In this document: positions 3,597 to 22,056 of the stretch, in pieces | Layout: each line of letters starts with the position of its first letter | Numbering within the stretch: the stretch's first letter is position 1 | Virus record (IMG/VR): IMGVR_UViG_3300009128_000129 | Span: 1 to 24,069 of that record | Source of the DNA: a virus | Direction: 5' to 3' (one strand) | Length of the DNA: 24,069 bases | The notes under the pieces: model-generated | Told to the model about the DNA's origin: nothing | The model's input: the letters and a program-made list of their open reading frames with translations, nothing else | The model's database searches: none | Position numbers and translations under genes: made by a program

Positions 3597-4286
3597 ATGA
3601 AAAACATCTTTATCACCACGGAAAATGTCAACAAGTGCACGGAGGTGTGTCAGGAGCTGGAGAGCCCGGAAAGCTTAATCGGGCCGTCCCTGGCCATGTT
3701 TACCGGCCCTGCAGGGCGCGGTAAGAGCGAGTTTGCGAAATACTATGCGACCAATTCAACGGCCATTTACATCCCGCCGCTCAACGTGCGGTCCCCGGCG
3801 ATGGTGCTCAGGGAGATCGCTTTTGAATTGTCCATGCTCAGGCCCCGTCAGACCGAGGCCTGCATGAATATTATCGGAAGCGAAATGGCCAAGGCCAGGC
3901 GTCTCATCTTTATTGATGAGGCGGATCTGCTGCCCATTGGTATTTTGGAGATGCTCAGGAATATCAATGAGCGCTATGCCTGCCCGGTGGTCCTCATTGG
4001 GGAGGAAGAACTCAAAGGCAAGGTGGGCAGTCGGCGCCGGATCACAAGCCGCATCCGGCGCCGGGTGGAGTTCAACCCGGTCACCCAGCCGGACATGGTC
4101 CTGTTTTACGCGAAAGCCCTGGATATGAATCTATCGAACAATGTGTCTACCATTCTATATCGCGGTTGTGGCGGAGACTGGCGGCCGATCGAGGTCACGG
4201 CGATTGCCATTGAGCGGGCGCTTAGGGCGAGTGGGGTTGATGAGATAACGGAAGATCTGGCGAAAGCGGTGGTAGGGAGCCAGTAG
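3597..4286 (+). CDS. MuB-like AAA+ ATPase, transposition target-DNA activator
   Basis: This 229-residue ATPase is expected to bind target DNA, deliver it to the transposase and stimulate strand transfer. Walker A is GPAGRGKS at residues 37-44; Walker B is LIFIDEAD at 103-110 (D107, E108). A sensor-like strand follows (VVLIGEEEL, 131-139), and a basic segment SRIRRRVEF (151-159) fits the arginine-finger region. The C-terminal part (YRGCGGDWRPIEVTAIAIERAL) is helical, like the MuB C-terminal domain. It is shorter than Mu MuB (about 312 residues) and lacks the N-terminal HTH extension; similar short forms occur in ExeA-like and TniB-like relatives. GAAAGGAGA precedes the ATG. The TAG stop lies inside the first heptad repeat (cagTAGgcaaac). 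Confidence 0.9.
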   Translation: MKNIFITTENVNKCTEVCQELESPESLIGPSLAMFTGPAGRGKSEFAKYYATNSTAIYIPPLNVRSPAMVLREIAFELSMLRPRQTEACMNIIGSEMAKARRLIFIDEADLLPIGILEMLRNINERYACPVVLIGEEELKGKVGSRRRITSRIRRRVEFNPVTQPDMVLFYAKALDMNLSNNVSTILYRGCGGDWRPIEVTAIAIERALRASGVDEITEDLAKAVVGSQ

Positions 4287-4328
4287 GCAAACCAGTCGGC
4301 AGTTGACAGTAGGCAGTAGGCAAACCAG
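4281..4328 (+). repeat. family A heptad array, left half only
   Basis: Units such as cagtagg, cagttga and cagtcgg end in caaaccagg. The right arm and the conserved loop of the complete elements are missing. The array starts over the stop codon of the ATPase gene and ends just before the start of the next gene. Confidence 0.85.
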
Positions 4329-4337
4329 GTGGATACT

Positions 4338-4829
4338 ATGGAACAATCGACAATCGACAATCAACAATCAACAATCCCAAAGACTGGGTTGGCGAAGCGC
4401 ATGCGCGAGTGGATGAAGGCCAGGCAGCGGCCCTTCCTGCCAGTGGAGCTGTGTGATGGCCTTGGCATTCCTAAAGGGCCGGAGAGGGATAGGACCCGAC
4501 AGGCCATGTTTGACTTTTTCCAGCGCGAGGAGATCGTGCGCAACGCAAATGGTAAGTATCTTTATAATAAGGGCTATAGGCCGCCTGTGCTTGGCGTTGT
4601 TAAGCCGAGGGCATTGCGGGCCATGTACTTTTCGATCACGTTTACGGTGAGTGACATCCAGCGCCTGGCCGAGGCAAAGACCCGCGATTATATAAATCAT
4701 ATGATAAAGCAGTTGCGGCAGGATGGGCATGTACGCATCATTGCCCGCAGTACTCGTGGGAATGGCGGGAGCGAGAGGTTGTATGGGTTGGTGGATCGGG
4801 AGAGGTTTAGAATTGAATTTGTAAGTTGA
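4338..4829 (+). CDS. winged-helix/HTH hypothetical protein
   Basis: The ORF is about 163 residues from ATG 4338; a GTG at 4329 and an ATG at 4402 are alternatives. The first residues (EQSTIDNQQSTI) are encoded by the heptad array at 4344-4376, so the ancestral start may be ATG 4402 (MREWMKARQRPFLPVELCDG). Two segments look like winged helices: 20-75 (PFLPVELCDGLGIP...RQAMFDFFQREEIVRN) and 105-160 (TVSDIQRLAEAKTRDYINHM...RIIARSTRGNGGSERLYGL), the latter with a beta-hairpin wing. It could regulate middle transcription, but I cannot name a family. The TGA stop lies inside a family A repeat word (agTTGACag). Confidence 0.7.
   Translation: MEQSTIDNQQSTIPKTGLAKRMREWMKARQRPFLPVELCDGLGIPKGPERDRTRQAMFDFFQREEIVRNANGKYLYNKGYRPPVLGVVKPRALRAMYFSITFTVSDIQRLAEAKTRDYINHMIKQLRQDGHVRIIARSTRGNGGSERLYGLVDRERFRIEFVS
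4344..4376 (+). repeat. family D heptad array (caatcga/caatcaa)
   Basis: About 4.7 units read caatcga, caatcga, caatcaa, caatcaa, caatc. The array is read in frame at the N-terminus of the HTH protein. It is the reverse-complement orientation of the arrays at 17579 and 22025. Confidence 0.85.
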
Positions 4830-4948
4830 CAGTCGGAGAGCAAGTTGACAGTCGGCAGTAAGCGAATCAGTTGACAGTAAGCAGTTGACAGTAGGCAAAC
4901 AGGGCGAAGGCATAGATTGCCTACTGTCAACTGCCCATTGCCGACTGG
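4824..4948 (+). repeat. family A heptad hairpin element, long copy
   Basis: Many units of agttgac/agtcggc/agtaagc are followed by a stem and the conserved 24-nt loop at 4896-4919. A perfect stem of about 18 bp pairs 4881-4898 with 4917-4934 (loop-closing bases shared with the core). It starts on the stop codon of the upstream gene and ends 15 bases before ATG 4964. Confidence 0.9.
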
Positions 4949-4963
4949 ACAGAAGAAGCAAAA

Positions 4964-5425
4964 ATGAGAGCACTAGCAACCAAACAGCCAAAGAAAAAAA
5001 CAGACCCGGAGCGGAAAGGGCTGTTGGCGAGAATACATATCGCTAAGAAACAGCTTGGCATGACGGATGAGGAGTACCGGGCAGCCATGTCACCTTTTGG
5101 CGTGGAGAGCGCGGGTCAGTTGACGATCCCTCAGCTTGAGGATTTTGACCGGTACCTACAAGACCTCGGCTGGAGGCCGGTGAAGAAGGCAAACGGCAAA
5201 AGGCAACAGGCAAAAGTGACGCAGCTTGAGGCGCTCAGGGAGCGGGCCAGGGCCATTGCCGGGGACCTGGAGAATGGCGAGGCCCGGCTCCGGGGGTTGA
5301 CGTTGAGCATATGCGGGGTGAACGATTTGGCGTGGTGTGTGGATGTGGCGAAGCTGAAAAGGTTGCTGACGGTGTTGGAAAAATATCGGCAAGGCCAGGA
5401 GAATCAGTTGACAATGGGCAGTTGA
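4964..5425 (+). CDS. GemA-family (Mu gp16-like) regulatory protein
   Basis: This 153-residue protein has the typical opening of the GemA/DUF1018 family: a basic N-terminus then LLARIHIAKKQLGMTDEEYRA, followed by QLTIPQLEDFDRYLQDLGWR. In Mu the gene lies in the early operon and its product modulates host gene expression; the precise mechanism here is unknown. Two heptad tracts intrude: 5188-5215 (ggcaaac/ggcaaaa units, residues about 75-84) separates the N-terminal domain from a C-terminal helical part, and the last residues (QENQLTMGS) plus the TGA stop are encoded by the following family A element. The original C-terminus probably ended near EKYRQG. Confidence 0.85.
   Translation: MRALATKQPKKKTDPERKGLLARIHIAKKQLGMTDEEYRAAMSPFGVESAGQLTIPQLEDFDRYLQDLGWRPVKKANGKRQQAKVTQLEALRERARAIAGDLENGEARLRGLTLSICGVNDLAWCVDVAKLKRLLTVLEKYRQGQENQLTMGS
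5188..5215 (+). repeat. four ggcaaaN heptads inside gemA-like gene
   Basis: Units ggcaaac, ggcaaaa, ggcaaca and ggcaaaa are read as a lysine/glutamine-rich linker (KANGKRQQAK). The period is 7, as in the intergenic arrays. Confidence 0.7.
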
Positions 5426-5484
5426 CAGTAGGCAAACTGGGCAATGGCATAGATTGTCAACTGTCAACTGCCCATTGTCAACTT
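5405..5484 (+). repeat. family A heptad hairpin, 22-bp perfect stem
   Basis: The arms 5406-5427 and 5462-5483 are perfectly complementary over 22 bases and extend inwards with one mismatch and one G-T pair to about 30 bp. The 24-nt core is at 5433-5456 (caaactgggc ... catagattg). The upstream gene's stop codon lies in the left arm; the next ATG is 16 bases after the right arm. Confidence 0.95.
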
Positions 5485-5499
5485 GGAAAAGAGGACATT

Positions 5500-5688
5500 A
5501 TGGTGAGATTTAGTGTGGAACGGTTTAAGGGCATTGCCTTTTGTGGGTTTACTTTTACGCGGGACTGGATCGCGTTGTGGTATTGCCGCGTGGTTGGTTA
5601 TGCTGTGGCGGTGGTTATGTTTCCGGTGGCGGTGGTTTTGGGCTTGCTGTGTGCTTTTGAGCGCGGGGAGGATGATGCCCACACTTGA
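5500..5688 (+). CDS. small membrane protein, 62 aa
   Basis: ATG 5500 is chosen because it follows AAAAGAGGAC and the end of the repeat hairpin; longer in-frame starts run back through the GemA gene. The protein has an aromatic N-terminal half (GIAFCGFTFTRDWIALWYC) and one clear membrane helix (VVGYAVAVVMFPVAVVLGLL), then a charged tail (CAFERGEDDAHT). It overlaps the next gene by 14 bases. Function unknown; one-helix peptides are frequent in this early region. Confidence 0.6.
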   Translation: MVRFSVERFKGIAFCGFTFTRDWIALWYCRVVGYAVAVVMFPVAVVLGLLCAFERGEDDAHT

Positions 5689-6412
5689 TTACACTTGCGA
5701 GGTATGTGGCGCTGAGGGCCAGGCATATCGGCGAGAAAAGCCGCCACGGTTTTGCAGTATGGTGTGTCGGAAAAAGGGCAAGTTTACGGCGGGCAATGGC
5801 AAGACGAGGTGGCCCATTACGCCGGAGGTGCACGAAAAGATCAGGCGGTTATATGCGGAGGATGTGGGCATGAGCCGGGCGCCCGTTGTCCGGGAGTTTG
5901 CGGATAGGCACAGACTGCCTGCCTGGAAAGTTAAGCGATATGCACAGGTACAGGGGTGGACTACCAGAGGGAAAAAAGAGCCAGTGTGGTCAGAAAAAGA
6001 GCTGGAGATTATAAAACGAAGCGCCCACCGGTCGATCGAGCGGGTGCAGATTTACTTGAAGCGGGCGGGCTTTGTCCGGTCTGTGACTGCCATTGCCTTG
6101 AAGCGCAAAAGAATGCAAGCATCCAGGTATATTGATGGCTATAGCGCCCTGCAGGTGGCGGAAGCCTTTGGCGTGGACGGCCATGTGGTTACACGGTGGG
6201 TTAAGCTGAAATATCTCAAGGCCATGCCGCGTGGGACAAAGCGTCATGGGCCACAGCATGGCGATATCTGGTATATCCGGGATGCCTGGATTAGGGCTTT
6301 TATCATTTCCTGTATTGACGTCATTGATTTGAGAAAGGTCGATAAATACTGGTTTGTGGACGTCCTGGCCGGTGGCCAGGATGGCCTGGGAAGGTTTGAG
6401 ACTGATGATTGA
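5675..6412 (+). CDS. zinc-finger plus HTH DNA-binding protein
   Basis: The ORF is 245 residues from ATG 5675, with GGGGAGG just upstream; the adjacent ATG 5672 leaves no spacing. The N-terminus holds a four-cysteine zinc-binding motif (CEVCGAEG ... CSMVCRKKGKF). The middle has helical repeats (EVHEKIRRLYAEDVGMSRA, SEKELEIIKRSAHRS) that look like Myb/homeodomain-type HTHs. The C-terminal part carries a MerR-like HTH (YSALQVAEAFGVDGHVVTRW) followed by a wing-like segment (HGDIWYIRDAWIRAFI). It probably binds DNA in early or middle control; I recognise no exact family. The last eight bases overlap the next gene. Confidence 0.75.
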   Translation: MPTLDYTCEVCGAEGQAYRREKPPRFCSMVCRKKGKFTAGNGKTRWPITPEVHEKIRRLYAEDVGMSRAPVVREFADRHRLPAWKVKRYAQVQGWTTRGKKEPVWSEKELEIIKRSAHRSIERVQIYLKRAGFVRSVTAIALKRKRMQASRYIDGYSALQVAEAFGVDGHVVTRWVKLKYLKAMPRGTKRHGPQHGDIWYIRDAWIRAFIISCIDVIDLRKVDKYWFVDVLAGGQDGLGRFETDD

Positions 6413-6536
6413 TGACTGGCTATTGATCGAGAGACAGCAAAATATAGAAGAGCGCGTTATAGATACAATCTTGATGGTGCTCTTTTCGGCTGGGATGCTT
6501 GTGACCATTGGGCTATTGGTTTGTTTGCTTTGGTAA
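6405..6536 (+). CDS. single-helix membrane peptide, 43 aa
   Basis: ATG 6405 starts in GATGATTGATGACTGG, overlapping the previous stop by eight bases. The start area resembles a family D repeat word. The protein has a short acidic N-terminus (MIDDWLLIERQQNIEERVID) followed by one strong membrane helix (TILMVLFSAGMLVTIGLLVC) and ends LLW. An in-frame start at 6354 would run back into the HTH gene and is less likely. Unknown function. Confidence 0.55.
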   Translation: MIDDWLLIERQQNIEERVIDTILMVLFSAGMLVTIGLLVCLLW

Positions 6537-6543
6537 CCTTGAT

Positions 6544-6622
6544 CAGTTGACAGTAGGCAGTTGACAGTAGGCAAACTGGGCGACCGTGTAGATTGTCAAC
6601 TGTCAATTGCCGACTGCCAACT
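6544..6622 (+). repeat. family A heptad hairpin element
   Basis: Arms 6545-6574 and 6593-6622 pair over 30 bases with about five mismatches, some of them G-T. The conserved core at 6572-6595 is 24 nt (caaactgggc ... gtagattg). Left-arm units are cagttga and cagtagg, repeated twice. Confidence 0.9.
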
Positions 6623-6642
6623 CAAAAAACAAAGGAAAACGC

Positions 6643-7326
6643 ATGGAAAAAGAAAACCTCGGCATTGATCCAAAGACAGGTCGTCATAGTTCGACGCCGT
6701 TGACCCGGTGGGAGAAGGCTTTCGTGGACTGCCTCTGGTTTGATCATGTGGGTAAGGCAAACAAAATCCCAGCGAACGATTTGGCTATCAAGTTTACTTA
6801 TAAGCTGGGCTGCTCTGTGGAGAGAGCCACAGATCGACATGAATTTGTGGAGTACTGGAAGCGCGAGGTCCGATATATGCAAAACCATTTGCTTTTTGTT
6901 CATGATCATATTCCAGTCTATTCCAGATCTGGCTTTAAAGGGGGATATTGGCTCGGCGAAACAGAGGAGGAAGGGATACAATTCTTTAATACCTTCCGGG
7001 GGCGTGGCCTTACATCGTTCAAAAAAGCAACCAGAGGGCGGCAGGCCACTATGGTGGAAATGATGCACCAACTTGCCTTTGAGTTTGACGTGAAGGACCA
7101 TACTGAAATCCCGGTTACCAGACAGCCGAAACAATCGGTACATGTGGCCGTGGTAGATCGCTTCTTAAGCCAAATGATGAGAGACCCTGGGCGGTTTTCT
7201 GAAGATCTTGAGCGGATCGGGCGCAAGTTTAATGCAGTCTTGCTGCCGAAGCAACGGGTCAATCAGATCGATCAAAAGGTAAAGGAGTTGCACCACTTGG
7301 TGACTGGACTTGTTTCAGGAGGATAA
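6643..7326 (+). CDS. hypothetical early protein, 227 aa
   Basis: ATG 6643 is preferred, with AAAGGAAAA upstream; an in-frame TTG at 6607 would begin inside the repeat. The protein is soluble and of mixed charge: TPLTRWEKAFVDCLWF, then an aromatic, histidine-containing part (YMQNHLLFVHDHIPVYSRSG) and a Ser/Gly turn-rich segment (GYWLGETEEEGIQFFNTF) that could be a winged helix. The C-terminus is a coiled coil (RVNQIDQKVKELHHLVTGLV). I do not recognise a family. The TAA stop is followed directly by another open stretch in the same frame (see 7327-7500). Confidence 0.65.
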   Translation: MEKENLGIDPKTGRHSSTPLTRWEKAFVDCLWFDHVGKANKIPANDLAIKFTYKLGCSVERATDRHEFVEYWKREVRYMQNHLLFVHDHIPVYSRSGFKGGYWLGETEEEGIQFFNTFRGRGLTSFKKATRGRQATMVEMMHQLAFEFDVKDHTEIPVTRQPKQSVHVAVVDRFLSQMMRDPGRFSEDLERIGRKFNAVLLPKQRVNQIDQKVKELHHLVTGLVSGG

Positions 7327-7500
7327 GAAGAAGGTGACCTTTTTCGCTGGGTTGATGTGTTTGACGCTCTTGTTGAACAAGCCATAGGGGCCAATTCAGC
7401 TAAAGCAGCACTTACCATAAGCTTTATTGACGACACAGAGGCAGCTTTGGGCGAGCTTGTGCCAGAGGTAATATTTCAGGTTAGGCGTATAGAGGAATGA
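7327..7500 (+). pseudogene. open frame after a TAA stop; frameshifted or readthrough small gene
   Basis: Immediately after the TAA at 7324-7326 the same frame stays open for 57 codons (EEGDLFRWVDVFDALVEQ ... EVIFQVRRIEE) and ends at a TGA that overlaps the next ATG as ATGA. There is no ATG. AGGAGG at 7317-7323 is placed to serve GTG 7337, which is in another frame. One additional T in the run at 7341-7345 would join that GTG to the long frame. It may be a small gene with a one-base deletion, a gene starting at GTG 7357, or a readthrough extension of the preceding protein. Sequence and coupled stop argue that the peptide is or was translated. Confidence 0.45.
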
Positions 7501-7829
7501 GTCAACATGAGATCCAGGAAGGGCGTGAGGCTGGTGAGGGCAAGCAAATTGCTGCACCTAAACCGGCAGATGATCAATTACCGCTCTTTGTGGAGAAGGG
7601 TAGACCGCGCAAGGGCTGGGAGCCACCGTGGGGGGATGGGACAAAGTATTTAAATGAACACGGTTTCCCTGGGCCTGATTGGCCGGGGTGGGACGCAAGC
7701 TGGTTAGAAAATGATTACTGTTTCCTCAACGTTGATGAGGATAGGAGGTTGATCGATGAAAGGAATAGCAAAGGCCGCAGTGGCACAGAAGCTGGCAGCC
7801 AGACGGGCGACGGGAAAGTTAAGGAGTGA
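7497..7829 (+). CDS. hypothetical protein, 110 aa
   Basis: This starts with ATGA overlapping the upstream TGA. The N-terminus is charged and probably disordered (EGREAGEGKQIAAPKPADDQ). The central segment is rich in Trp/Gly/Pro (GWEPPWGDGTKYLNEHGFPG, DWPGWDASWLENDYCF), and LFVEKGRPRKG is basic. The last 25 codons overlap the next gene in another frame. No family is recognised. Composition resembles small early proteins of other transposable phages but gives no function. Confidence 0.55.
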   Translation: MSQHEIQEGREAGEGKQIAAPKPADDQLPLFVEKGRPRKGWEPPWGDGTKYLNEHGFPGPDWPGWDASWLENDYCFLNVDEDRRLIDERNSKGRSGTEAGSQTGDGKVKE

Positions 7830-7968
7830 GATCCTGGATCTGATGGGGGATCTTAAGAAGACCGTGGCACAGCTTCAGACGGCGGTGGAGAAAGAGCGGT
7901 TTGAGCGGCGTGTTAGGGCGCAGGCGTCGGCTTCGGACGCTGGGAATTGTTGGGCGAGTTTGCTGTGA
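7756..7968 (+). CDS. small coiled-coil protein, 70 aa
   Basis: ATG 7756 follows GATAGGAGG with good spacing and lies inside the end of the previous gene (overlap of 74 bases). The protein is basic at the N-terminus (KAAVAQKLAARRATGKLR), then helical (EILDLMGDLKKTVAQLQTAV, EKERFERRVRAQ), consistent with a coiled coil. It ends right where the family C repeat array begins. Unknown function. Confidence 0.55.
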   Translation: MKGIAKAAVAQKLAARRATGKLRSEILDLMGDLKKTVAQLQTAVEKERFERRVRAQASASDAGNCWASLL

Positions 7969-8064
7969 GGTTCAGGGTTCAAAGTTTAAAGTTCAAGGTT
8001 CAAGGTTCAAGGTTCAGGGTTCAAGGTTCAAAGTTTAAAGTTCAGGGTTCAAAGTTTAAAGGTT
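7969..8064 (+). repeat. family C heptad array, 13 units (ggttcaa/agtttaa)
   Basis: Thirteen exact-length 7-mers and a five-base remainder fill the whole gap between a TGA and the next ATG. Words are ggttcag, ggttcaa, agtttaa, agttcaa. No long inverted arm is present. The same words occur inside the transposase gene at 3190-3216. Confidence 0.95.
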
Positions 8065-8469
8065 ATGGAACGGCCAGTTGAACATAAAAAATTAAATTTT
8101 CGCAAGGCCCTAAAGAATGAGCTGCTTTATTGGGTGCTCATTTTCATCCTGCTCTTTATGATTTTTTTTCTGAGGGTTGGCCGGTTAACCCGTTCGCCGG
8201 TTAGCCGGTATTTTACGGGCCAACGGGCAAACCGGCTAACGGGAGAACCAAACAAAATGAGAGCCGAAGACGCACAGTGGTATCGTGATGAATATTATTG
8301 CCTGGAGTGCCAGTGCGGCAGGGCAAAGAAGTCTGGGTTTAGCTTTTGCTGGAAGTGCTGGCACAAGCTGCCGGAAGAACTGCAAATACGGCTCTATAAC
8401 AAGCGCGGGGCGTGGACCACCGGCTATGGCCAGGCTTATGAGGAATGTGTGAGGTTTTTGAATGAATAA
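8065..8469 (+). CDS. membrane helix joined to zinc-ribbon domain, repeat-mediated fusion
   Basis: The 134-residue ORF has three parts. Residues 1-36 are a basic start and one membrane helix (LLYWVLIFILLFMIFFL). Residues 37-62 are encoded by a complete period-8 hairpin element (8175-8243). From M65 (ATG 8257) begins a compact cysteine-rich domain, with CLECQCGRAKK then FCWKCWHKLP, a zinc-ribbon pattern, followed by a helical end (GYGQAYEECVRFLNE). The layout suggests two former genes joined in frame by the repeat; ATG 8257 could still start the second domain alone, although its upstream GGGAGAACC is not ideal. No family named. It overlaps the next ATG by eight bases. Confidence 0.6.
   Translation: MERPVEHKKLNFRKALKNELLYWVLIFILLFMIFFLRVGRLTRSPVSRYFTGQRANRLTGEPNKMRAEDAQWYRDEYYCLECQCGRAKKSGFSFCWKCWHKLPEELQIRLYNKRGAWTTGYGQAYEECVRFLNE
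8175..8243 (+). repeat. family B octad hairpin inside a coding frame
   Basis: Period-8 words (ccggttaa, cccgttcg, ccggttag, then acgggcca, acgggcaa, accggcta) form an imperfect inverted repeat around ccggtattttacgggcc. It is read in frame as RVGRLTRSPVSRYFTGQ and onward. Confidence 0.85.
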
Positions 8470-8743
8470 GGCTGAGGGAAAAAAGGAATATCGCTATATC
8501 CATTTTGTGAAGGCCGAAGAAAAGCCAAAAACGGAAGTGTGGACTTGCCACAATAATTCAACTGAGGCGCATATTGGCACAGTCGCCTGGCATCCACATT
8601 GGCGGCAATACTGCTATTTTACCAAGGGGGCAATTTACAGTTCGGGCTGTATGGCGGATATCCAGGATTTCATAAAGTGGCTTGACGGTCGGAGGAAGGC
8701 ACGGGCAAACGGGCAAACGGGCAAACGGGACAACCCTAAATGA
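8462..8743 (+). CDS. hypothetical phage protein, 93 aa
   Basis: ATG 8462 overlaps the previous stop by eight bases. The core, KTEVWTCHNNSTEAHIGTVA then WHPHWRQYCYFTKGAIYSSG and CMADIQDFIKWL, is a compact beta-rich domain of a type I associate with small proteins of unknown function in phages and mobile elements. The last 14 residues (ARANGQTGKRDNPK) are encoded by period-8 repeat units (acgggcaa), so the natural C-terminus was probably near WLDGRRK. The stop overlaps the next start as ATGA. Confidence 0.6.
   Translation: MNKAEGKKEYRYIHFVKAEEKPKTEVWTCHNNSTEAHIGTVAWHPHWRQYCYFTKGAIYSSGCMADIQDFIKWLDGRRKARANGQTGKRDNPK
8701..8734 (+). repeat. family B octads at the 3' end of a gene
   Basis: Units acgggcaa, acgggcaa, acgggcaa, acgggaca. 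Only one arm of the family B element is present, and it is read in frame as the C-terminus of the preceding gene. Confidence 0.85.
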
Positions 8744-8931
8744 AAAAATATATCGATGATAACGGGCAGGTTGTCGAGGTTGTGAAGGGCCTTAGCGATT
8801 GGTGGATCTGCGCCCGCGGGGGACATCGCGTGAAAACCAAGTATCTGCCGCCGAGAAAAAGTGCAGACCTTTGCCAGCAGGATCTTGACGCATATGCAAG
8901 GGGAAAGGGGTGGCGCGTTGACGATAGTTGA
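8740..8931 (+). CDS. hypothetical protein, 63 aa
   Basis: ATG 8740 overlaps the previous TGA. The protein starts KKYIDDNGQVVEVVKG, and its middle (GLSDWWICARGGHRVKTKYL) is aromatic and basic, with two cysteines overall (WICARG, LCQQD) that do not form an obvious metal site. The C-terminus is helical (DLCQQDLDAYARGKGW). The Shine-Dalgarno region would fall inside the repeat-encoded end of the previous gene, so coupling is likely. Unknown function. Confidence 0.55.
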   Translation: MKKYIDDNGQVVEVVKGLSDWWICARGGHRVKTKYLPPRKSADLCQQDLDAYARGKGWRVDDS

Positions 8932-8992
8932 GCTGATCGCCCTTTGCGTGGTGCTGGGGGTGCTGCTTTTGGGTTGGTTAGTGGAGAGATGA
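8918..8992 (+). CDS. tiny membrane peptide, 24 aa (TTG start)
   Basis: TTG 8918 follows GGGGAAAGGGG. The peptide is MTIVELIALCVVLG... ending GWLVER: one hydrophobic helix capped by Glu-Arg. It overlaps the end of the previous gene by 14 bases and finishes five bases before the next hairpin element. Translation is plausible but unproven because of the non-ATG start and small size. Confidence 0.4.
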   Translation: MTIVELIALCVVLGVLLLGWLVER

Positions 8993-8997
8993 AGGGG

Positions 8998-9080
8998 GTT
9001 TGCCGGTTAGCCCGTTCGCCGGTTCGCCGGTGTTTGTCACGGGCCAACGGGCCAACGGGCCAACCGGCAAACGGGCTAAC
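8998..9080 (+). repeat. family B octad hairpin element
   Basis: Arms 8998-9016 and 9054-9072 pair over 19 bases with one mismatch. The inner core is ccggtgtttgtcacgggcc. Words are ccggttag, cccgttcg, ccggttcg and acgggcca. The next ATG is 20 bases downstream. Confidence 0.9.
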
Positions 9081-9099
9081 CCCAAGAGAGGATGGAGAG

Positions 9100-9201
9100 A
9101 TGACATTTTATGGCCTCGCCACATGTGTCGTGATAGCGCTGTTGATGGTCATCTTCATCTGGATCGCGGTGAAAGATGATGATGTTGACCCAAAGGGATG
9201 A
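9100..9201 (+). CDS. single-helix membrane peptide, 33 aa
   Basis: ATG 9100 follows GAGAGGATGGAGAG. The peptide is MTFYGLATCVVIALLMVIFI then WIAVKDDDVDPKG: one membrane helix with an acidic tail. An in-frame ATG at 8944-8990 would translate through the repeat hairpin and is rejected. Unknown function; it follows another membrane peptide (8918-8992), and the two could work together. Confidence 0.5.
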   Translation: MTFYGLATCVVIALLMVIFIWIAVKDDDVDPKG

Positions 9202-9205
9202 AATA

Positions 9206-15200: not shown

Positions 15201-16655
15201 ATGAACTTACGAGAACGCATAGCAATACGGCTTGAACCGACCATGCGGACAGAAGAAGAAGTCCGTGGGTTGGTGAAAGATGTGGTCGCACAAGAAGGGT
15301 CGAAGATTGAGGCCTTGGTTAAAACGGAAGTGGAAAAGGCCAAGATGTCGCTTCCTATTGTGGCAAATTGGGACCCAAAAAATGAGGGGTATCGCCGCAT
15401 GTCCGGCGATGTGACACAGCGCCGGGATCTGGCAATGATCAAACAAGACCGGATGTTTGAGATTGCGTATTATATGTGGGATCAGAGCGCCATGACAAAG
15501 AGGTTGGCCAAGATGGATAAGACTTTTCTTTTTGCCGAGCCCATCACGGTCACCAGTGATGATGAGGCCGTCAAGGAAATCATTGACCGGTTTTGGAGCG
15601 ATCCCCAGAACAACATGGACCTGGATTTTCCTGATCAGATGATGTGGCTGGGGCTTTTGGGTGAGCAATGCTGGCCGGTGGACATCAATAAGCACAATGG
15701 TCATGTGAGATTGGGGTATGTAGACCCGGCAGGTATCCGGGAAGTGTACGTGAACCGGATGAATGTGAAGCAGGCGGTCCAGGTAGAGCTGGTGGGCACG
15801 GCAGGCCGCTCCGGTAAAAAGATGTCGGTGATTCGTACCGATGGTGACCCGAGGCATAAGAGCTTTAACAGGCTGGTAGGGGAATGCTTTTTCTTCGCCA
15901 TTAATAAGCCGCCGAACTCTCCACGGGGACGAAGCGACCTACTCACGCTCTTTGACTGGATCGATGGCCTGGAGCAATACGGTTTCAATTATTTGGAGCG
16001 GGCAGAGTTTCTACTCAATTTTGTGTGGGACATCACGCTGAAGGGTATGAGCGAGGACCAAATCAGGAAGTGGATGGAAGATAACCCGCCACCACAACCG
16101 GGGAGCCAACGGGCGCACAATGAACAAGTTGAATGGAAGGCCGTGTCGCCTGATATCAAGGCCCATGACTACAGCAAGGGCTTTGAGATGGGAAAGTCTT
16201 TTATCATGGGCGCGGCTGGGCGGCCTGAGTCGTGGTTTGGCGGTGGCGGCAAGGCCTATCAGACCGAGGCAGAGATCTTCGGCCAGGTGCCGATCAAGGA
16301 CCTTGATGAGCGGCAGTTGTATGTGAGGCATGTCCTGAATAAGGTCATCCAGTTTCAGCTTGACAGTGCGGTGATTGTCGGACGGTTGACGGAAAAGCAG
16401 GCAGCGGCTGGGTTTACGGTAAACATGCCGGAGATCAGCAAGAAGGACCTGGTGAAATTGGTCAATGGTGTACCACAATTGACCACGGCATTGACAGTGG
16501 CTGAGCAGAATCGGTGGATTACCAGAGAGACAGCCACGCGGATGTTTGCGATGGTGAGCAGCCAGCTCGGCATGGAGATTGATGTGGAAAAGGAGCTTGA
16601 GGCGGCGGGGAAGGCGCTGCCCTCCGCTTTTGAGGATTATGAGCAGGTAAAATAG
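15201..16655 (+). CDS. portal protein
   Basis: The 484-residue protein forms the capsid vertex ring for DNA entry. ATG 15201 is chosen because the in-frame upstream stretch from 15099 is repeat-encoded; however, no good ribosome-binding site is visible. Typical portal features include an N-terminal helical clip region (MRTEEEVRGLVKDVVAQEGS), a segment RDLAMIKQDRMFEIAYYMWD, the wing-like SPRGRSDLLTLFDWIDGLEQ then YGFNYLERAEFLLNFVWDIT, and a C-terminal crown helix (PQLTTALTVAEQNRWITRET). It occupies the position of Mu gp29, but I do not claim close similarity. The TAG stop shares its last two bases with a family A repeat. Confidence 0.85.
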   Translation: MNLRERIAIRLEPTMRTEEEVRGLVKDVVAQEGSKIEALVKTEVEKAKMSLPIVANWDPKNEGYRRMSGDVTQRRDLAMIKQDRMFEIAYYMWDQSAMTKRLAKMDKTFLFAEPITVTSDDEAVKEIIDRFWSDPQNNMDLDFPDQMMWLGLLGEQCWPVDINKHNGHVRLGYVDPAGIREVYVNRMNVKQAVQVELVGTAGRSGKKMSVIRTDGDPRHKSFNRLVGECFFFAINKPPNSPRGRSDLLTLFDWIDGLEQYGFNYLERAEFLLNFVWDITLKGMSEDQIRKWMEDNPPPQPGSQRAHNEQVEWKAVSPDIKAHDYSKGFEMGKSFIMGAAGRPESWFGGGGKAYQTEAEIFGQVPIKDLDERQLYVRHVLNKVIQFQLDSAVIVGRLTEKQAAAGFTVNMPEISKKDLVKLVNGVPQLTTALTVAEQNRWITRETATRMFAMVSSQLGMEIDVEKELEAAGKALPSAFEDYEQVK

Positions 16656-16732
16656 TCGGCAATAGGCAGTTGACAGTTGACAAACTAGGCAATGGCATAG
16701 ATTGCCTACTGTCAACTGCCCACTGCCGACTG
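16654..16732 (+). repeat. family A heptad hairpin element
   Basis: Arms 16654-16676 and 16709-16731 pair over 23 bases with two mismatches. The 24-nt core is at 16681-16704 (caaactaggc ... catagattg). It ends ten bases before ATG 16743. Confidence 0.9.
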
Positions 16733-16742
16733 GAGTGAGCGG

Positions 16743-17576
16743 ATGCCCAAGAGCAAGAAAGAGAAAGAGTTTGAGCGTAAGTTAAATGAGCTCATTGAGC
16801 GGGCGGATAAGTTGCTCGATGATGAGGTGACCAAAGTCATTGCCATGCTTGAAGAGGCAAGAAAGGGCGTGGCTGCCACGGTGGCCTCAACCGAGTGGGA
16901 GGCGCATTACTTGCAGCAAATGAAGGCGGCCATTGAGCGGGCCTTGCAGGAGTTTGGCGACAAGTATGGCGTGGAGCTGAGAGAAGCACAGCGGGCCTTT
17001 TGGGAGCTTGGCATTGATATTGTGGATCTGCCTATACGAGAGGTTGGTGTGATGGCGGCTATCCCGGAGATTGACACTGCGGTCCTTGGGATCATGCAAG
17101 GATTTTCGTCAGACCTCGTTACTAATTTGAGCGCGGATGCCATTAAGCGGATCACAAATGAGCTGACCCTGGCCATGCTGGGCCAAAAGACGCCGTATGA
17201 AGTCATGGAGCTTATTGGCCGGAACCTGGATGATAAGTCCATCTTTAGCTCCATTGCAGACCGGGCAGAGGCCATCACACGGACCGAAGGGGGCCGGGTA
17301 TTGTCGGCAGCCACACAGGCCAGGCATGAGGCGGCGGCAAAAGTAGTGCCGGGGCTGATGAAGGAGTGGCGCCACTCGCATATCAGCCGGATGCCACGGA
17401 TTGCGCACCTGGCAGCCGAGGGGCAGCGAGTGAAAGTAAATGAGCGCTTTATGGTGGCTGGTGAAGCGCTTAAATACCCGCGAGATCCGGCAGGATCGGC
17501 CAAGAATACGATTAGGTGCGAGTGTTACTCAGTGCCATACCACCCGAACTGGGATGCGGTGCTGTTGGCAGCATAA
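16743..17576 (+). CDS. minor head morphogenesis protein (Mu gpF-like)
   Basis: The 277-residue protein has a charged, helical N-terminus (KKEKEFERKLNELIERADKL, then VTKVIAMLEEARKGVAATVA). Its C-terminal third fits the gpF/SPP1 gp7 domain: DRAEAITRTEGGRVLSAATQ, then ARHEAAAKVVPGLMKEWRHS, followed by a histidine/glycine-containing part (HLAAEGQRVKVNERFMVAG) and a cysteine-containing end (NTIRCECYSVPYHPNWD). This family sits next to the portal gene and helps capsid assembly or DNA ejection. The order (portal, gpF, small protein, protease-capsid) agrees with Mu-like head modules. Spacing from the repeat hairpin is short. Confidence 0.88.
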   Translation: MPKSKKEKEFERKLNELIERADKLLDDEVTKVIAMLEEARKGVAATVASTEWEAHYLQQMKAAIERALQEFGDKYGVELREAQRAFWELGIDIVDLPIREVGVMAAIPEIDTAVLGIMQGFSSDLVTNLSADAIKRITNELTLAMLGQKTPYEVMELIGRNLDDKSIFSSIADRAEAITRTEGGRVLSAATQARHEAAAKVVPGLMKEWRHSHISRMPRIAHLAAEGQRVKVNERFMVAGEALKYPRDPAGSAKNTIRCECYSVPYHPNWDAVLLAA

Positions 17577-17578
17577 GG

Positions 17579-17611
17579 GATTGATGATTGATGATTGATG
17601 ATTGTCGATTG
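17579..17611 (+). repeat. family D heptad array (gattgat orientation)
   Basis: Units gattgat, gattgat, gattgat, gattgtc, gattg. The array is the reverse complement of the caatcga/caatcaa arrays at 4344 and 12908. It ends shortly before AAAGGAGG and ATG 17633. Confidence 0.9.
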
Positions 17612-17632
17612 AAAAAGAAAGGAGGAAAGAAA

Positions 17633-17911
17633 ATGGCTAAGACACAAACAGAAAAAACGGCAGAGGCGAATGACGCTAAGGCAAAGGCTGCATTGCTGGA
17701 GGAAGCACTGGAGGCCTATGGAGTTGAAAGGGAGTATGTCTTTTCCAGCAGGGTTGACCTGGCATCGGGGACGGTTGTTATTTTGACGAATGGCGGTGCC
17801 AGGGTGCAGTACAAGCAGGGCGATAAGGTGGCAAAGCTGGACCCCATCCGAGTTACCGGCATCAATCCTGAATGGGAAAAGCGCAAGCCGATAGTGGGGA
17901 AAAAGAAATAA
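17633..17911 (+). CDS. small head-module protein, 92 aa
   Basis: ATG 17633 follows AAAGGAGGAAAG; an in-frame start at 17588 would be repeat-encoded. The first third is helical and charged (QTEKTAEANDAKAKAALLEE). The rest looks like a small beta domain (EYVFSSRVDLASGTVVILTN, then GGARVQYKQGDKVAKLDPIR). The position between gpF and the protease is occupied in several Mu-like phages by small unknown proteins. Probably structural or assembly-related, by position only. Confidence 0.6.
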   Translation: MAKTQTEKTAEANDAKAKAALLEEALEAYGVEREYVFSSRVDLASGTVVILTNGGARVQYKQGDKVAKLDPIRVTGINPEWEKRKPIVGKKK

Positions 17912-17915
17912 AGGG

Positions 17916-17976
17916 GGTTGGCCGGTTAGCCCGTTAGCCGGTTCGCCGGTGACAAATACGGGCCAACGGGCCAACC
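17916..17976 (+). repeat. family B octad hairpin element
   Basis: Arms 17916-17934 and 17958-17976 pair over 19 bases with two mismatches. The inner core is ccggtgacaaatacgggcc. It lies 18 bases before ATG 17995. Confidence 0.9.
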
Positions 17977-17994
17977 ACAAGGAGAAACAGACCA

Positions 17995-20565
17995 ATGCCA
18001 TACACACTAGAAAAACCACCGGACTGGCTGAAGAACTTGCCAGCAGGGGCGATTAAGATCGGAGTGGCGGCACTTAACAGCGATTTTGAAAAGACGGGCA
18101 ATGAGGAAAGTGCCAGGAAAGCCGCCTGGGGTGCTATCAAGCAGAAATACGAGAAAGGCGATGACGACACATGGCGGGCCAAGCAGGATGTGAGCCTGGA
18201 TGATATCCGCGATATGATCTGGAAAGCCCTGGATGAAAGGCAAAAAGATGCCTACCTGCAGGACGTTTATGGCGCTTACATGGTGTATGAGGCGGACAGG
18301 AAATACTACAAGCTGGCCTACTCCATCCTGGACGGAGAAGTACAGTTCGGGAGTGACCCAATGGAGGTGAAGAAAGAGTGGGTTATTGCTAATACCAAAC
18401 CACTGGAGATGCCCGTGCGGCTTGTACAGGCAACCGACCCTGAAGGTGCGTCATGGGAAATCGTTATCTGCGAGCCTGGGCTTACAAAAAACGGGTGGTA
18501 TCACCCAGAAGAGGTGTTGCGGGCGTCGGCGGATCTTTTTGAGGGCGTTAGCTTAAATTTTTATGATCTGCCCAAAAAAGGGGCAACGCATATACAGGAC
18601 TCACTTTTTGACCTAAAAAAGTTCCTGGTGGCAAATAAGGCAGGCTGGATAGAAAAGGTGCGTTATGTGGCAGGTGAAGGATTGAAGGGGACATTACACT
18701 TTCTCGATTCGTTTAAGTGGCTGGGCAAAAATCTCCTGGCGGCAATGGCTGAGGGGGCGCGGGTTTACGGTTTATCCTATGACGCTCCCGCACAGGCGAA
18801 GAAAAGCACCATCGATGGCCGGTCGGTCCTCGAACTGGTGAAGTTATATGGCGTAGATAGCGTGGACATAGTGGACCGGCCCGCGGCCGGTGGTAAATTT
18901 ATCCGGGCCGTGGCGGCCCAAAAGGAGGGAGATATCATGAATAAGCAAGAATTATGGAACATGATTGAAAAAGCACGGCCCGAGCTGCTGAAGGGGAAGA
19001 CGTTGGAGGCTATCTCGGATGAGGAGTTGACCGGGCTTGTGCGGATGGCGATGGAGCCGGGGGCTGACCAGTCGGCAGGCGATGGGAATCAGCCGGCAGT
19101 TGACAGTCAGCAGTCGGCAAACCAGGGCGGAGACGGTGACCCTGGTGTGACGAGAGAGGATTTTGACAAGCTGCGGTGTGATATGGCGCTGAAAGACAAG
19201 CTGGCCGGGAGTGATCTGGACGAGGCCGGAAGGAAGCATATCTGGGAGCGCTTTCATGGTCGCGTTTTTGAAGAGGCCGAGCTGGACAAGGAGCTTGGCG
19301 CGTTGAAAGACTTGCTGGCCACCAAGGCACAGATGGATCAAGGCGCAGGGGCCGGTGATGTTGATGGCATCCCTGCCAGTGGACGCATCTGCGTGGGTAT
19401 TGGTACCCTTGAGAGGGCGCAGATGGCCGTGGACAGGATGTTTGGGCTCACGAAGGAAGACATGGAAGGCTTTGCCCGCATGGAGCGGCTGGATCATAAG
19501 CCGTTCTTTGAGGATGTGCGCAGTGCGCAGGATTACCAGGAGATGGACAAAGTGCCACCCTTTTCATCCTTGCATGAAATGTATGTCTTTTTCACGGGTG
19601 ATCCTGAAGTGAGAGGGGTTTTTAACCAGAAAGGGTTAAAGGCCAGGATGGATATCACGAGTTCAACGTTTACTTATGCCTTTGGCAACACCCTTGGTAG
19701 ACGGTTGGTGAAGGATTATCTGGCCGCTAATTTCCGGGAAGATCTCATAATCAGCGTGGCAAAGTCGGTGAAGGATTTCAGGCAGCAAGAAGCAGTTAAG
19801 GTCGGCTTTTTCGGAGACCTTGACACGGTAGACCCGGAAACAGCCGATTACCAGGAGATTGCTGCTGTGACCGATGAAGAGGCCACCTACACGCTGGCAC
19901 AGAAAGGAAACCTTTTGACGATCACCAGAAAGACGATCATCAACGATGACCTCTCTCTTGTGCAGAGGCTTGTGTCCCGGTTAGGCCGTGCAGCCAGGCG
20001 CACCCATGCCCAGTATGTGTGGGATATGTGGGTTGACAATGACAATTGCAGTGATGGGACGGCTTGGCACACCTCCGGGCATGGAAACCTGGGAGCGGCG
20101 GCATTGAGCATTACCACGGCCCTGGCGGCCTGGAAGGCCCTGGCCAAAATGACCGAAAAGGACAGTGCAAAGCGGATCGGGCTCTTAGACGATCCTGGCC
20201 TAAAGGTCTCCCTGATTCATCCGCCGGACCTGTTCGACACAGCGGATATTGTGGCAAATAACGAGTACTATCCAGGATCAACGACCAACCTGAATGACCG
20301 CAATCCCATGAGAAACAAGTTGGTACCCGTACAGGTGAGCTTGCTCACGGATACCAATGACTGGGGCATCATTGCACCCAATGCGCTGGTGGACCATGTT
20401 GAGATGGGGTACTTGAACGGCCGTCGGGAGCCGGAGATGTTTGTAGCCGACTCGCCGCAGAGCGAGCAGGTCTTTGTGGCCGATAAGATTCGGTACAAGA
20501 TCCGTCATGAGTACGCTGGCACGCCAGTGGATTATGTGGGGAGCTATAAGGCGCAAGTCGCCTAA
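17995..20565 (+). CDS. fusion: ChaB-like / prohead protease / scaffold / gpT-type major capsid
   Basis: An 856-residue protein with four parts. Residues 1-60 resemble ChaB (PPDWLKNLPAGAIKIGVAAL, then a short helix ending WGAIKQKYEKGDDDTW). Residues 140-305 fit a caudoviral prohead protease, with candidate catalytic H199 and S261 (VYGLSYDAP) and the ending VDSVDIVDRPAAGG. Residues 315-450 are helical and acidic like a scaffold, with repeat-encoded residues 359-377. From about 475 to the end the sequence fits a Mu gpT-type capsid protein (SLHEMYVFFTGDPEVRGVFN, DITSSTFTYAFGNTLGRRLV). In Mu these are separate I, Z and T genes. An internal ribosome-binding site at 18922-18929 could yield scaffold-capsid separately. 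Confidence 0.85.
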   Translation: MPYTLEKPPDWLKNLPAGAIKIGVAALNSDFEKTGNEESARKAAWGAIKQKYEKGDDDTWRAKQDVSLDDIRDMIWKALDERQKDAYLQDVYGAYMVYEADRKYYKLAYSILDGEVQFGSDPMEVKKEWVIANTKPLEMPVRLVQATDPEGASWEIVICEPGLTKNGWYHPEEVLRASADLFEGVSLNFYDLPKKGATHIQDSLFDLKKFLVANKAGWIEKVRYVAGEGLKGTLHFLDSFKWLGKNLLAAMAEGARVYGLSYDAPAQAKKSTIDGRSVLELVKLYGVDSVDIVDRPAAGGKFIRAVAAQKEGDIMNKQELWNMIEKARPELLKGKTLEAISDEELTGLVRMAMEPGADQSAGDGNQPAVDSQQSANQGGDGDPGVTREDFDKLRCDMALKDKLAGSDLDEAGRKHIWERFHGRVFEEAELDKELGALKDLLATKAQMDQGAGAGDVDGIPASGRICVGIGTLERAQMAVDRMFGLTKEDMEGFARMERLDHKPFFEDVRSAQDYQEMDKVPPFSSLHEMYVFFTGDPEVRGVFNQKGLKARMDITSSTFTYAFGNTLGRRLVKDYLAANFREDLIISVAKSVKDFRQQEAVKVGFFGDLDTVDPETADYQEIAAVTDEEATYTLAQKGNLLTITRKTIINDDLSLVQRLVSRLGRAARRTHAQYVWDMWVDNDNCSDGTAWHTSGHGNLGAAALSITTALAAWKALAKMTEKDSAKRIGLLDDPGLKVSLIHPPDLFDTADIVANNEYYPGSTTNLNDRNPMRNKLVPVQVSLLTDTNDWGIIAPNALVDHVEMGYLNGRREPEMFVADSPQSEQVFVADKIRYKIRHEYAGTPVDYVGSYKAQVA
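18937..20565 (+). CDS. nested in-frame product: scaffold-capsid (internal start)
   Basis: AAGGAGGG at 18922-18929 lies seven bases before ATG 18937, which is in frame (residue 315 of the long ORF). It is a stronger ribosome-binding site than most in this window and lies exactly at the border between the protease (ending RPAAGGKFIRAVAAQKEGDI) and the scaffold part (NKQELWNMIEKARPELLKGK). Translation from it would give a 542-residue scaffold-capsid protein without the protease, in large amounts, while occasional translation of the long form supplies the protease. Nested starts are well known in head genes, for example lambda C/Nu3. Evidence here is sequence only. Confidence 0.65.
   Translation: MNKQELWNMIEKARPELLKGKTLEAISDEELTGLVRMAMEPGADQSAGDGNQPAVDSQQSANQGGDGDPGVTREDFDKLRCDMALKDKLAGSDLDEAGRKHIWERFHGRVFEEAELDKELGALKDLLATKAQMDQGAGAGDVDGIPASGRICVGIGTLERAQMAVDRMFGLTKEDMEGFARMERLDHKPFFEDVRSAQDYQEMDKVPPFSSLHEMYVFFTGDPEVRGVFNQKGLKARMDITSSTFTYAFGNTLGRRLVKDYLAANFREDLIISVAKSVKDFRQQEAVKVGFFGDLDTVDPETADYQEIAAVTDEEATYTLAQKGNLLTITRKTIINDDLSLVQRLVSRLGRAARRTHAQYVWDMWVDNDNCSDGTAWHTSGHGNLGAAALSITTALAAWKALAKMTEKDSAKRIGLLDDPGLKVSLIHPPDLFDTADIVANNEYYPGSTTNLNDRNPMRNKLVPVQVSLLTDTNDWGIIAPNALVDHVEMGYLNGRREPEMFVADSPQSEQVFVADKIRYKIRHEYAGTPVDYVGSYKAQVA
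19069..19126 (+). repeat. family A heptads inside the scaffold region
   Basis: Units cagtcggcagg, cagttga, cagtcag, cagtcgg end in caaaccaggg. Only the left half of the family A element exists, as in 4281-4328 and 10465-10482. It is read in frame as residues 359-377 (QSAGDGNQPAVDSQQSANQ), between the two scaffold parts. Confidence 0.85.
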
Positions 20566-20569
20566 TATG

Positions 20570-20647
20570 GGTTGGCCGGTTGGCCCGTGCGCCCGTTAGC
20601 CCGTAAAAAAGACCGGCTAACCGGCTAAACCGGCCAACGGGCAAACC
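20570..20647 (+). repeat. family B octad hairpin element
   Basis: An inverted repeat of about 35-nt arms with regular G/C alternation between the words cccgttag and ccggctaa, and an A-rich loop (cccgtaaaaaagaccggc). It starts after the capsid gene stop and ends 19 bases before ATG 20667. Confidence 0.9.
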
Positions 20648-20666
20648 AAAAAAAAGGAGGAAAACC

Positions 20667-21653
20667 ATGAAAAGATTTAACAAAATATGTTGGATTACAC
20701 TGGCCATTGTGCTGCTTATGTTTGTGGCATTTGAGGCAGCGGCCTATGATGTGAAACAGATCCATAGTCGATTTAAGGCCACGTCCGGGGAGGCATTGAC
20801 GACGGGTGAAGTGGTGTGCATCAAGGATGCGGACGGCTATGCCTATAAGGCGGACTCGGATGACTCCAGCCTGCGGCCTGCCGTAGGCATTGTGGGCAGC
20901 AAAACCGCGACGGCCTCTGGATCTGCCGTGGAGATTATTATCAGCGGTACACTTACTGGGTGGAGCAGCCTTGCCGAAGGTGGGGCGGTTTATCTGTCTC
21001 CGACGGCGGGAGACGTGAGTCAAAGCTCGCTGACCGCGGCCTATGAGCAGCAGGTCGGTGTGGCGATCTCGACCACTGATATCCTGTTCGACTTCAACGC
21101 CAAGGCCGGGACGCCGACGAATGCGGCCGTGAGCGGGACCCTGGCCGTGACGGGTACGACAACGCTTACCGGCAATCTGACCGCTAACGGCGCCGCGAAT
21201 ACCCTGTCAAACACGACCGCGAGCGGGACACTGACGGTGACAGGGACCACGACGACCAATGGCACCCTGGATGTGAATGGCGATTTGGCTGGTGACGGTG
21301 GTGGGGTAAGCTATGGCATGAAAACCAGCGTGGTGGAGAAAACGGGCAATTATACGTGTACCGCCACCACAGATGTGGGCAAGACGTTCACCAATGAGGG
21401 CTCAAGTGGCGAGATTACCTTTACGCTGCCCACAGCCGCCACGGGGTTGCAATATTGCTTTGCGAACGCGGACAGCAATGGCTATACCGTCAACGTTGAT
21501 CCGGGCGCTAGTGATCAGATCCTTGGTGAAACCAACTCTACCGAAGACAAGGTGCAGAGCACAAGCCAGGGTGATGTGATATGCCTGGAGGCCGTGGATG
21601 AAGTGAACTGGATCTCAAGAGGTGGCTTTGGTACTTGGGCGGATGCGGATTAA
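20667..21653 (+). CDS. fibre/decoration-like protein with signal peptide
   Basis: The 328-residue protein follows AAAAAAGGAGGAAAACC. Residues 1-26 look like a Sec signal peptide (MKRFNKICWITLAIVLLMFV, then AFEAAA before YD). Residues 28-140 form a beta-rich domain (TSGEALTTGEVVCIKDADGY, then RPAVGIVGSKTATASGSAVE) like phage head decoration/fibre base proteins. Residues 155-215 hold short Thr/Gly-rich repeats (SGTLAVTGTTTLTGNL, SGTLTVTGTTTTNGTL) as in trimeric fibres. The C-terminal part (GEITFTLPTAATGLQYCFAN ... CLEAVDEVNWISRGGFG) fits a fibre tip. A signal peptide on a virion protein is unusual because capsid parts normally assemble in the cytoplasm. Confidence 0.75.
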   Translation: MKRFNKICWITLAIVLLMFVAFEAAAYDVKQIHSRFKATSGEALTTGEVVCIKDADGYAYKADSDDSSLRPAVGIVGSKTATASGSAVEIIISGTLTGWSSLAEGGAVYLSPTAGDVSQSSLTAAYEQQVGVAISTTDILFDFNAKAGTPTNAAVSGTLAVTGTTTLTGNLTANGAANTLSNTTASGTLTVTGTTTTNGTLDVNGDLAGDGGGVSYGMKTSVVEKTGNYTCTATTDVGKTFTNEGSSGEITFTLPTAATGLQYCFANADSNGYTVNVDPGASDQILGETNSTEDKVQSTSQGDVICLEAVDEVNWISRGGFGTWADAD

Positions 21654-21655
21654 GT

Positions 21656-21718
21656 TGGTTAACCGGTTGGCCCGTTAGCCCGTGAAAAACACCGGCTAAC
21701 CGGCTAAACCGGCCAACC
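21656..21718 (+). repeat. family B octad hairpin element
   Basis: Arms of about 28 nt pair around cccgtgaaaaacaccggc. Left words are ccggttgg, cccgttag; right words are accggcta, accggcta, aaccggcc. It lies between the fibre-like gene and ATG 21738. Confidence 0.9.
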
Positions 21719-21737
21719 CAAAACAAGGAGACTAACA

Positions 21738-22025
21738 ATGGCAAATGACTGGACAAAAAACCCGATGGAGATCGACACGGCTGAGAACAACGCGGGTGAC
21801 TATCTGATAAATTATATGGAGTGGCATCCGAACGCGGCCAATGACGACCTGGAGGTGCAGGACGGTGCGGGCAATGTGCTGTGGAAGATACGGGCCATTG
21901 CGCCGTCGAGTAACGATGAGACATCGGGGATCGAAAAGACCGAGATCGGGGCGTTTCCCTTGCCAGCACATGGCCTCAATGTGGTGACCATTGATGGGGG
22001 AACGTTGTATGTGCACCTGAGATAA
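21738..22025 (+). CDS. small structural-module protein, 95 aa
   Basis: ATG 21738 follows AACAAGGAGAC. The protein is MANDWTKNPMEIDTAENNAG, then a beta-strand pattern (INYMEWHPNAANDDLEVQDG, then AGNVLWKIRAIAPSSNDETS, then FPLPAHGLNVVTIDGGTLYV). I associate this arrangement (TKNP-x-D ... DGAGNVLW ... G-LYVHL) with small beta proteins in fibre modules of deltaproteobacterial prophages; the function is not known. It has no signal peptide, unlike its neighbours. The stop runs into a family D repeat. Confidence 0.65.
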   Translation: MANDWTKNPMEIDTAENNAGDYLINYMEWHPNAANDDLEVQDGAGNVLWKIRAIAPSSNDETSGIEKTEIGAFPLPAHGLNVVTIDGGTLYVHLR

Positions 22026-22056
22026 TTGACGATTGATGATTGTCGATTGTCGATTG
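22025..22056 (+). repeat. family D heptad array (gattgtc orientation)
   Basis: Units ttgacga, ttgatga, ttgtcga, ttgtcga, ttgag. Same orientation as 17579-17611. It ends just before AGAGAGG and ATG 22069. Confidence 0.85.

Follow-up and report, generated by a model that had tools for sequence, protein, structure and literature searches.

On balance, the short tandem arrays that occupy the gene junctions of the Mu-like phage genome analysed here are probably small interspersed palindromic repeats which have a clade-specific vocabulary, gather at the junctions of exchangeable DNA and were acquired at gene junctions. The whole stretch of DNA analysed, referred to in the following as the window, comprises an entire IMG/VR record (G000; 24,069 bp) and contains genes for MuA, MuB, GemA, terminase, MuF and the capsid. 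Since the record contains no flanking host DNA and no host could be identified, the designation of the window as a prophage in the original prediction was given up. Unless stated otherwise, coordinates refer to the plus strand, which is the strand of all window genes used in the analysis.

Distribution of the arrays in the window

With a segment cut-off score of at least 12, the period scan detected 14 period-7, six period-8 and two period-9 segments in the window, as compared to means of 0.0, 0.075 and 0.025, respectively, in 40 dinucleotide shuffles of the same sequence. Periods 4 to 6, 10, 11 and 13 were about zero, and the signals at 14, 16, 18 and 21 are multiples. Together with direct reading, the scan confirms as real the five word families, A to E, that had been predicted at these junctions, and a signal of equal strength in shuffled sequence, which would have spoken against them, was not seen. 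Further words beyond these families are GGAGCTC, GCGGAAT, GGCAAAC and GATCAGC. As delimited by us, about 28 elements cover about 1.67 kb or 7% of the window, and on direct reading practically all gaps between genes of at least 30 nt from 4286 to 22069 contain array words. The density of period-7 arrays per 100 kb is 50 in the window and 37 in the related contig L089, 0 in phage Mu and 0.7 to 4.7 in three sampled hosts.

The arrays usually begin at or within the stop codon of the upstream gene and end shortly before the following ribosome-binding site, and array words contain the stop codons of the MuB, GemA, SLT, ORF6N and holin genes. The predicted location between stop codon and ribosome-binding site thus holds as the usual one at junctions, but arrays were also found within ORFs.

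Family A begins with a half-element (AGTCGGC AGTTGAC AGTAGGC; 4287–4325) between MuB and the next gene, the MuB stop codon TAG lying in an adjoining CAGTAGG word. It is followed at 4827–4949 by a two-armed hairpin (4869–4946; −46.8 kcal/mol, z −8.7) with extra left units, at 5405–5483 by an element that supplies the GemA stop codon (−54.3 kcal/mol, z −13), and at 6544–6624 by a further element (−43.7 kcal/mol). The element at 12005–12073, in which the right arm is shortened, supplies the holin stop codon, and the one in the portal/MuF gap lies at 16654–16732 (both from inverted-repeat search and fold). Core alignment and fold delimit another element (12720–12797), which together with an extra partial left arm spans 12693–12799.

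Two-armed B elements reside at 8175–8252 (octamers GGTTAGCC/CGTTCGCC), and at 8997–9081 (−57 kcal/mol); further B elements are found 3′ of the capsid gene at 20570–20648 (−45.3 kcal/mol) and, with 3 + 3 units, at 21657–21720 (period scan, fold). In addition, there is a B fragment (GGGCAAACCGGCTAACC) at 10862–10883, recognised by sequence reading, and a B element with a short right arm and a poor fold at 17916–17960 (period scan). The first of these B elements is read through by ORF 8065–8469, which probably represents two genes, the second beginning near 8257. The E element at 11433–11556 consists of nonamers ATTGGTTTG and their relatives around the core GCGGCTGAAAGCCGC (−45.3 kcal/mol, z −6) and has the SLT stop codon at its start; a second copy with the same core and a decayed right arm is located at 15093–15175 (period scan, fold). 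The single C array (GGTTCAA/AGTTTAA, period 7, about 14 units) extends over 7969–8068, with neither an inverted arm nor an RNA fold. D arrays were located by period scan at 12903–12945 (ACAATCA, period 7), with the end immediately in front of the gene for the terminase small subunit, and on the minus strand at 17579–17611 (GATTGAT, i.e. in the opposite orientation) and 22024–22057.

Intragenic arrays sit at N-terminal extensions or in indel-rich linkers. In MuA, GGAGCTC heptamers occupy a variable linker (1402–1434; period scan and homologue comparison), GCGGAAT heptamers a site with three residues more than in homologues (3087–3117), and AGTTCAA heptamers the C-terminal region (3188–3215; period scan). 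A D array (ACAATCG/ACAATCA, period 7; 4343–4376) lies within the N-terminal extension of ORF 4338–4829, and GGCAAAC heptamers lie in a variable linker of GemA (5188–5216; period scan). The remaining cases are a B-type single-arm array (ACGGGCAA) at an ORF C-terminus (8701–8736; period scan), GATCAGC/GGTCAGC heptamers where the terminase large subunit is extended N-terminally as compared to relatives (13539–13573), and A words in a variable linker of a capsid/protease ORF (19070–19130; direct reading).

Architecture and unit grammar

Inverted-repeat search and reading reveal a feature that had been overlooked in the original prediction, namely that A, B and E, with units of 7, 8 and 9 nt, respectively, mostly consist of two inverted arrays of three to five units each, separated by a short core, while C and D are single arrays without an inverted partner. 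The A element of about 78 bp is composed of four heptamers, a 22-nt core that is common to the copies, and again four heptamers. Its left arm reads from the outer to the inner unit, e.g., AGTCGGC, AATAGGC, AGTTGAC, AGTAGGC, followed by the core AAACTAGGCAATGGCATAGATT and by four reverse-complement units as the right arm. Among the 12 distinct A copies in the window and in the phage contig L097, two have a shortened right arm, ten are in sense and two in antisense orientation relative to the genes, and the ten full copies have a mean column identity of 87% across 78 columns. B is built from [GC]GTTN[GA]CC units that surround a GTGACAAACAC-type core, in either orientation, E units ATTGGTNNN flank the core GCGGCTGAAAGCCGC, and the cores are likewise common among the B copies and among the E copies. 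Because of these common cores (A, 87% over 78 bp) and the inverted arms, the copies of A, B and E can be regarded as dispersed relatives.

Among 92 A units for which the core alone set the phase, positions 1 and 7 are invariant, T is found at position 3 in 90 and G at position 5 in 87 units, and all four bases occur at position 4, resulting in the consensus A[GA]TNGRC. Similarly, in the GTTCAAN units of two prophages of the metagenome-assembled genome (MAG) G002 (see below), position 6 does not vary, whereas position 7 comes close to uniform (H 1.92 bits). The chromosomal GTTCAAN set of G002 has the same pattern, but it is not independent because the pattern used for its retrieval fixes the very positions compared.

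Matched junctions in related phages and bacterial genomes

About half of the 80 relatives retrieved by a terminase search carry arrays, in words of their own, and at orthologous junctions the genes overlap or abut in most relatives. In particular, the gap between the portal and MuF genes is shorter than 30 nt in 14 of 19 records, and in the five records where it is present, including the window, it holds an array in all cases and a different word in each (chance per junction at most 1.2%, four tested). After the capsid gene, the junction is at least 58 nt long in each of the 12 records that were compared, and a hairpin of some kind is often present there. In line with the original prediction, the arrays are therefore not kept at the same positions in distant phages, the relatives having no insert or a different word at matched junctions. 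Within the group of the window, words of A, B and E occur together in contig L128, of A in L131, and of A and E in L097; after the same upstream gene, an A element is found in L131 versus B arrays in L128, and a pair of A copies from adjacent junctions has 97.5% identity. The combination of several unrelated families and of unit lengths 7, 8 and 9 under one architecture in one transposable phage, as originally described, is borne out and recurs with other words and the same layout in an independent phage, L055.

A search of annotated phages and plasmids with the A element gave no match, nor did a search of phages with the structural region. A second assembly of the window phage is identical over 13.7 kb, so that no movement was caught and copy-number variation was not seen between these two assemblies. 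Of note, the IMG/VR contigs L008 (window 7998–21676), L128 and L131 start or stop within elements, implying that assemblies break there and that such phages are fragmented in databases. Another dispersed hairpin (ACTGGATTCCCGCC...GGCGGGAATGAC) is present at other junctions of relatives (L089 1700–1830, L023/L025).

With respect to bacterial genomes, the A pattern was found in five of 345 genomes of Desulfobacterota, nearly always as a single match and in three only with an AGTTGAC run, and the host of the window was not found. The MAG G002 (record title: Deltaproteobacteria) contains two homologous Mu-like prophages with 70–86% nucleotide identity, in which some junctions are filled in one prophage only, one junction carries different families, and another differs by 14 nt, i.e. 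two units. Of the 29 matches to GTTCNAN in G002, 13 are located in 71 kb of prophage DNA and 16 in the remaining 3.23 Mb, corresponding to a 37-fold higher density (p ~1e-14), as compared to no match in control strings or in five other genomes; the vocabulary was found in 15 of 60 genomes from the set of relatives of G002. Enrichment inside prophages is thus evident in G002, but phages are not the sole home of the arrays. The chromosomal copies of G002 adjoin ordinary genes (FtsX, ABC, MFS, SSF); near-identical, recent copies in prophage and chromosome were not found, and it is the words more than their order that are common to both. Binning is a caveat for this MAG, and the vocabulary common to prophage and chromosome supports the bin.

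In a related genome, G037, the matches cluster in variable islands, and 393 kb of unselected DNA from it contain 0.8 period-7 arrays per 100 kb. In match-bearing regions of G037 and of the other relatives G318, G354 and G355, arrays of several different words are densely concatenated, and the genes checked in those of G037 and G318 include polysaccharide genes (Wzz, glycosyltransferase) and AAA_14-DUF4143 genes. The prophage as sole site of the arrays was therefore rejected, the chromosomal match-bearing regions of the relatives being equally dense. In the intergenic regions L271 to L278, arrays of different words lie end to end with short linkers (ACTATCTTTTC or AACTGTT), and at L258, L273 and L274 (G002/G318/G037) genes for AAA_14-DUF4143 ATPases adjoin dense arrays, five being among the flanking genes tested. 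RAYT-type transposases (Y1_Tnp) are encoded in six of six prophage-bearing MAGs and also in five of 14 control genomes, and four RAYT loci are without strong flanking arrays.

Known repeat systems and origin of the elements

REP/REPIN and MITE-type palindromic repeats are short, dispersed, imperfectly palindromic, intergenic and found in both orientations. The window elements resemble them in dispersal, imperfect palindromy, intergenic placement and occurrence in both orientations, but differ in that their arms are made of strict 7-, 8- or 9-nt tandem units and in that, despite terminal inverted repeats as in MITEs, no target-site duplication was seen in the form of an adjacent direct repeat at ten A copies. 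The closest precedent are the "predicted global regulator binding sites" of Geobacter metallireducens, of which there are tens per genome and which consist of four to five degenerate tandem hepta- or octanucleotide units (GTTGCTYN, MTYCTGA) in opposite-strand pairs, for which the recruitment of a host protein was proposed (PMC2700814). Likewise, A, B and E, but not C and D, combine two tandem arrays with about four units each on opposite strands. However, the Geobacter sites are chromosomal, are not described as filling phage junctions and include no nonamers, and their words differ from those of the window as judged by eye only.

In the SPADE survey (PMC6344855), heptamer tandem repeats are reported to outnumber all other periodic repeats in prokaryotic intergenic DNA, and no clear indication of what this periodicity does is seen there. 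Strict 7-nt units above chance, as in cyanobacterial STRR and in the long simple sequence repeats (LSSR) of prokaryotic intergenic DNA (Mrazek 2007, as cited in PMC4679880), are found in A, C and D, while B and E with their units of 8 and 9 nt fall outside the heptanucleotide class by length. An enrichment between genes is likewise seen, 97 of 218 arrays being intergenic or at gene edges by naive ORF calls, as opposed to about 7% non-coding sequence. LSSR are, like the arrays of the window, mostly intergenic and clade-patchy, but the window elements differ from them in their degeneracy at set positions, their two arms with cores and their additional unit lengths. The TAACTGA direct repeats of Beggiatoaceae (PMC4679880) share the few-unit intergenic heptamer arrays, the lineage-patchy distribution and a possible horizontal spread, but represent a single, mostly direct word near start codons, without hairpin pairs save one indirect repeat. 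STRR and the Xanthomonas/Nostoc GGGNATC repeats (PMC4692102) are also intergenic heptamers with one degenerate position and some inverted pairs, but are chromosomal single-word families with words of G-quadruplex type. Among openly licensed papers, no description of such repeats as fillers of phage junctions was found. Here, heptamer repeats become accessible to study in the form of discrete elements that have two arms, a core and a clade vocabulary and can be scored as present or absent at matched junctions, including those of two sister prophages in one genome (G002). A statistical oddity is thereby turned into testable questions as to what moves the elements, what makes them accumulate in prophages and variable islands and what recognises the fixed unit positions, offering a practical way into the question of why 7-letter repeats are so abundant in bacterial genomes.

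According to the reading as interspersed palindromic repeats, the elements are pairs of inverted arrays that enclose a short core and mostly have three to five units, each 7, 8 or 9 nt long, and single-arm arrays might be halves or relatives of these, an extra step that C and D would require and that counts against this reading. Also to be weighed against it are the absence of target-site duplications at the A copies, the lack of recent near-identical copies in prophage and chromosome of G002, the failure to find the host of the window, the second assembly with no sign of movement and the four RAYT loci without strong flanking arrays. Each host clade would possess its own vocabulary, common to its phages and variable chromosomal islands, from which phages would acquire elements at gene junctions. 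Insertion there may be tolerated because many words carry stop triplets able to end the upstream gene and the downstream ribosome-binding site stays intact. We infer that copies are not generated locally but brought in, either through insertion or through recombination with copies already resident, and that tolerance and not selection accounts for their presence; after acquisition, array length would shift by whole units.

Alternatively, replication slippage in place might make the heptamer arrays, with hairpins arising from quasi-palindrome correction or copy-back and the footprint of the polymerase accounting for the 7-nt bias, the latter a proposal of Mrazek et al. 2007 (cited in PMC4679880 and PMC4692102). 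While the two-unit length change at one G002 prophage junction and the single arrays C and D would suit this account, we consider it unlikely, as slippage would be expected to homogenise units, whereas those observed combine near-invariant with free positions; as the arms of one copy match each other no better than the arms of other copies (p 0.89); and as A keeps its 4 + 4 layout constant between junctions that are unrelated and in further phage contigs, and arrays of period 8 and 9 exist as well. The original suggestion of fresh slippage at each junction is not supported in view of the shared cores and inverted arms of A, B and E, and it is these cores, together with the occurrence in both orientations, the presence or absence at matched junctions and the clade-wide vocabulary, that favour dispersed palindromic repeats. 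Much less probable still is a dedicated host or phage enzyme, likened to telomerases with a variable position, that would generate the arrays by repeatedly copying a short template, which sets the unit length (7, 8 or 9 nt), with certain positions mis-copied in each round, and would drop them at gene ends in exchangeable DNA.

The hairpins might also serve as RNA punctuation, i.e. as stem-loops between cistrons with a role in protecting or processing late mRNA or in insulating translation, in agreement with the strong predicted folds of most A, B and E copies (−35 to −57 kcal/mol; z −3 to −13), the range for A and B being mostly −30 to −57 kcal/mol, and with the junction of at least 58 nt after the capsid gene. 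However, this is rather improbable, since C does not fold, the short B copy at 17915 and the second E copy fold weakly, and most other orthologous junctions lack any insert. Moreover, the RNAalifold covariation term for A is only 0.09, which together with the absence of preferential matching within copies suggests that the fold follows from the same words being used in both directions. The elements had no match in Rfam, and a reading as terminators was rejected, there being no excess of terminator-like sites. By analogy with Geobacter, each unit could finally be a candidate binding site, with arrays of four or five, often paired, recruiting a host protein. The fixed and free positions of the A and GTTCAAN units and the paired opposite-strand layout are consistent with such a role, but the different placement in the sister prophages of one host and the many unrelated words in one phage make it, if anything, slightly more doubtful than a function in RNA.

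Apart from the arrays, the window contains a G + C-rich structured stretch at 10650–10800, which lacks an Rfam match, ends with a stem followed by a T run and is possibly a small RNA or an operon terminator. In addition, a 28-nt inverted repeat (89%) with its copies 44 nt apart is found at 9316–9415 ahead of ORF 9436, resembling a leader or attenuator.
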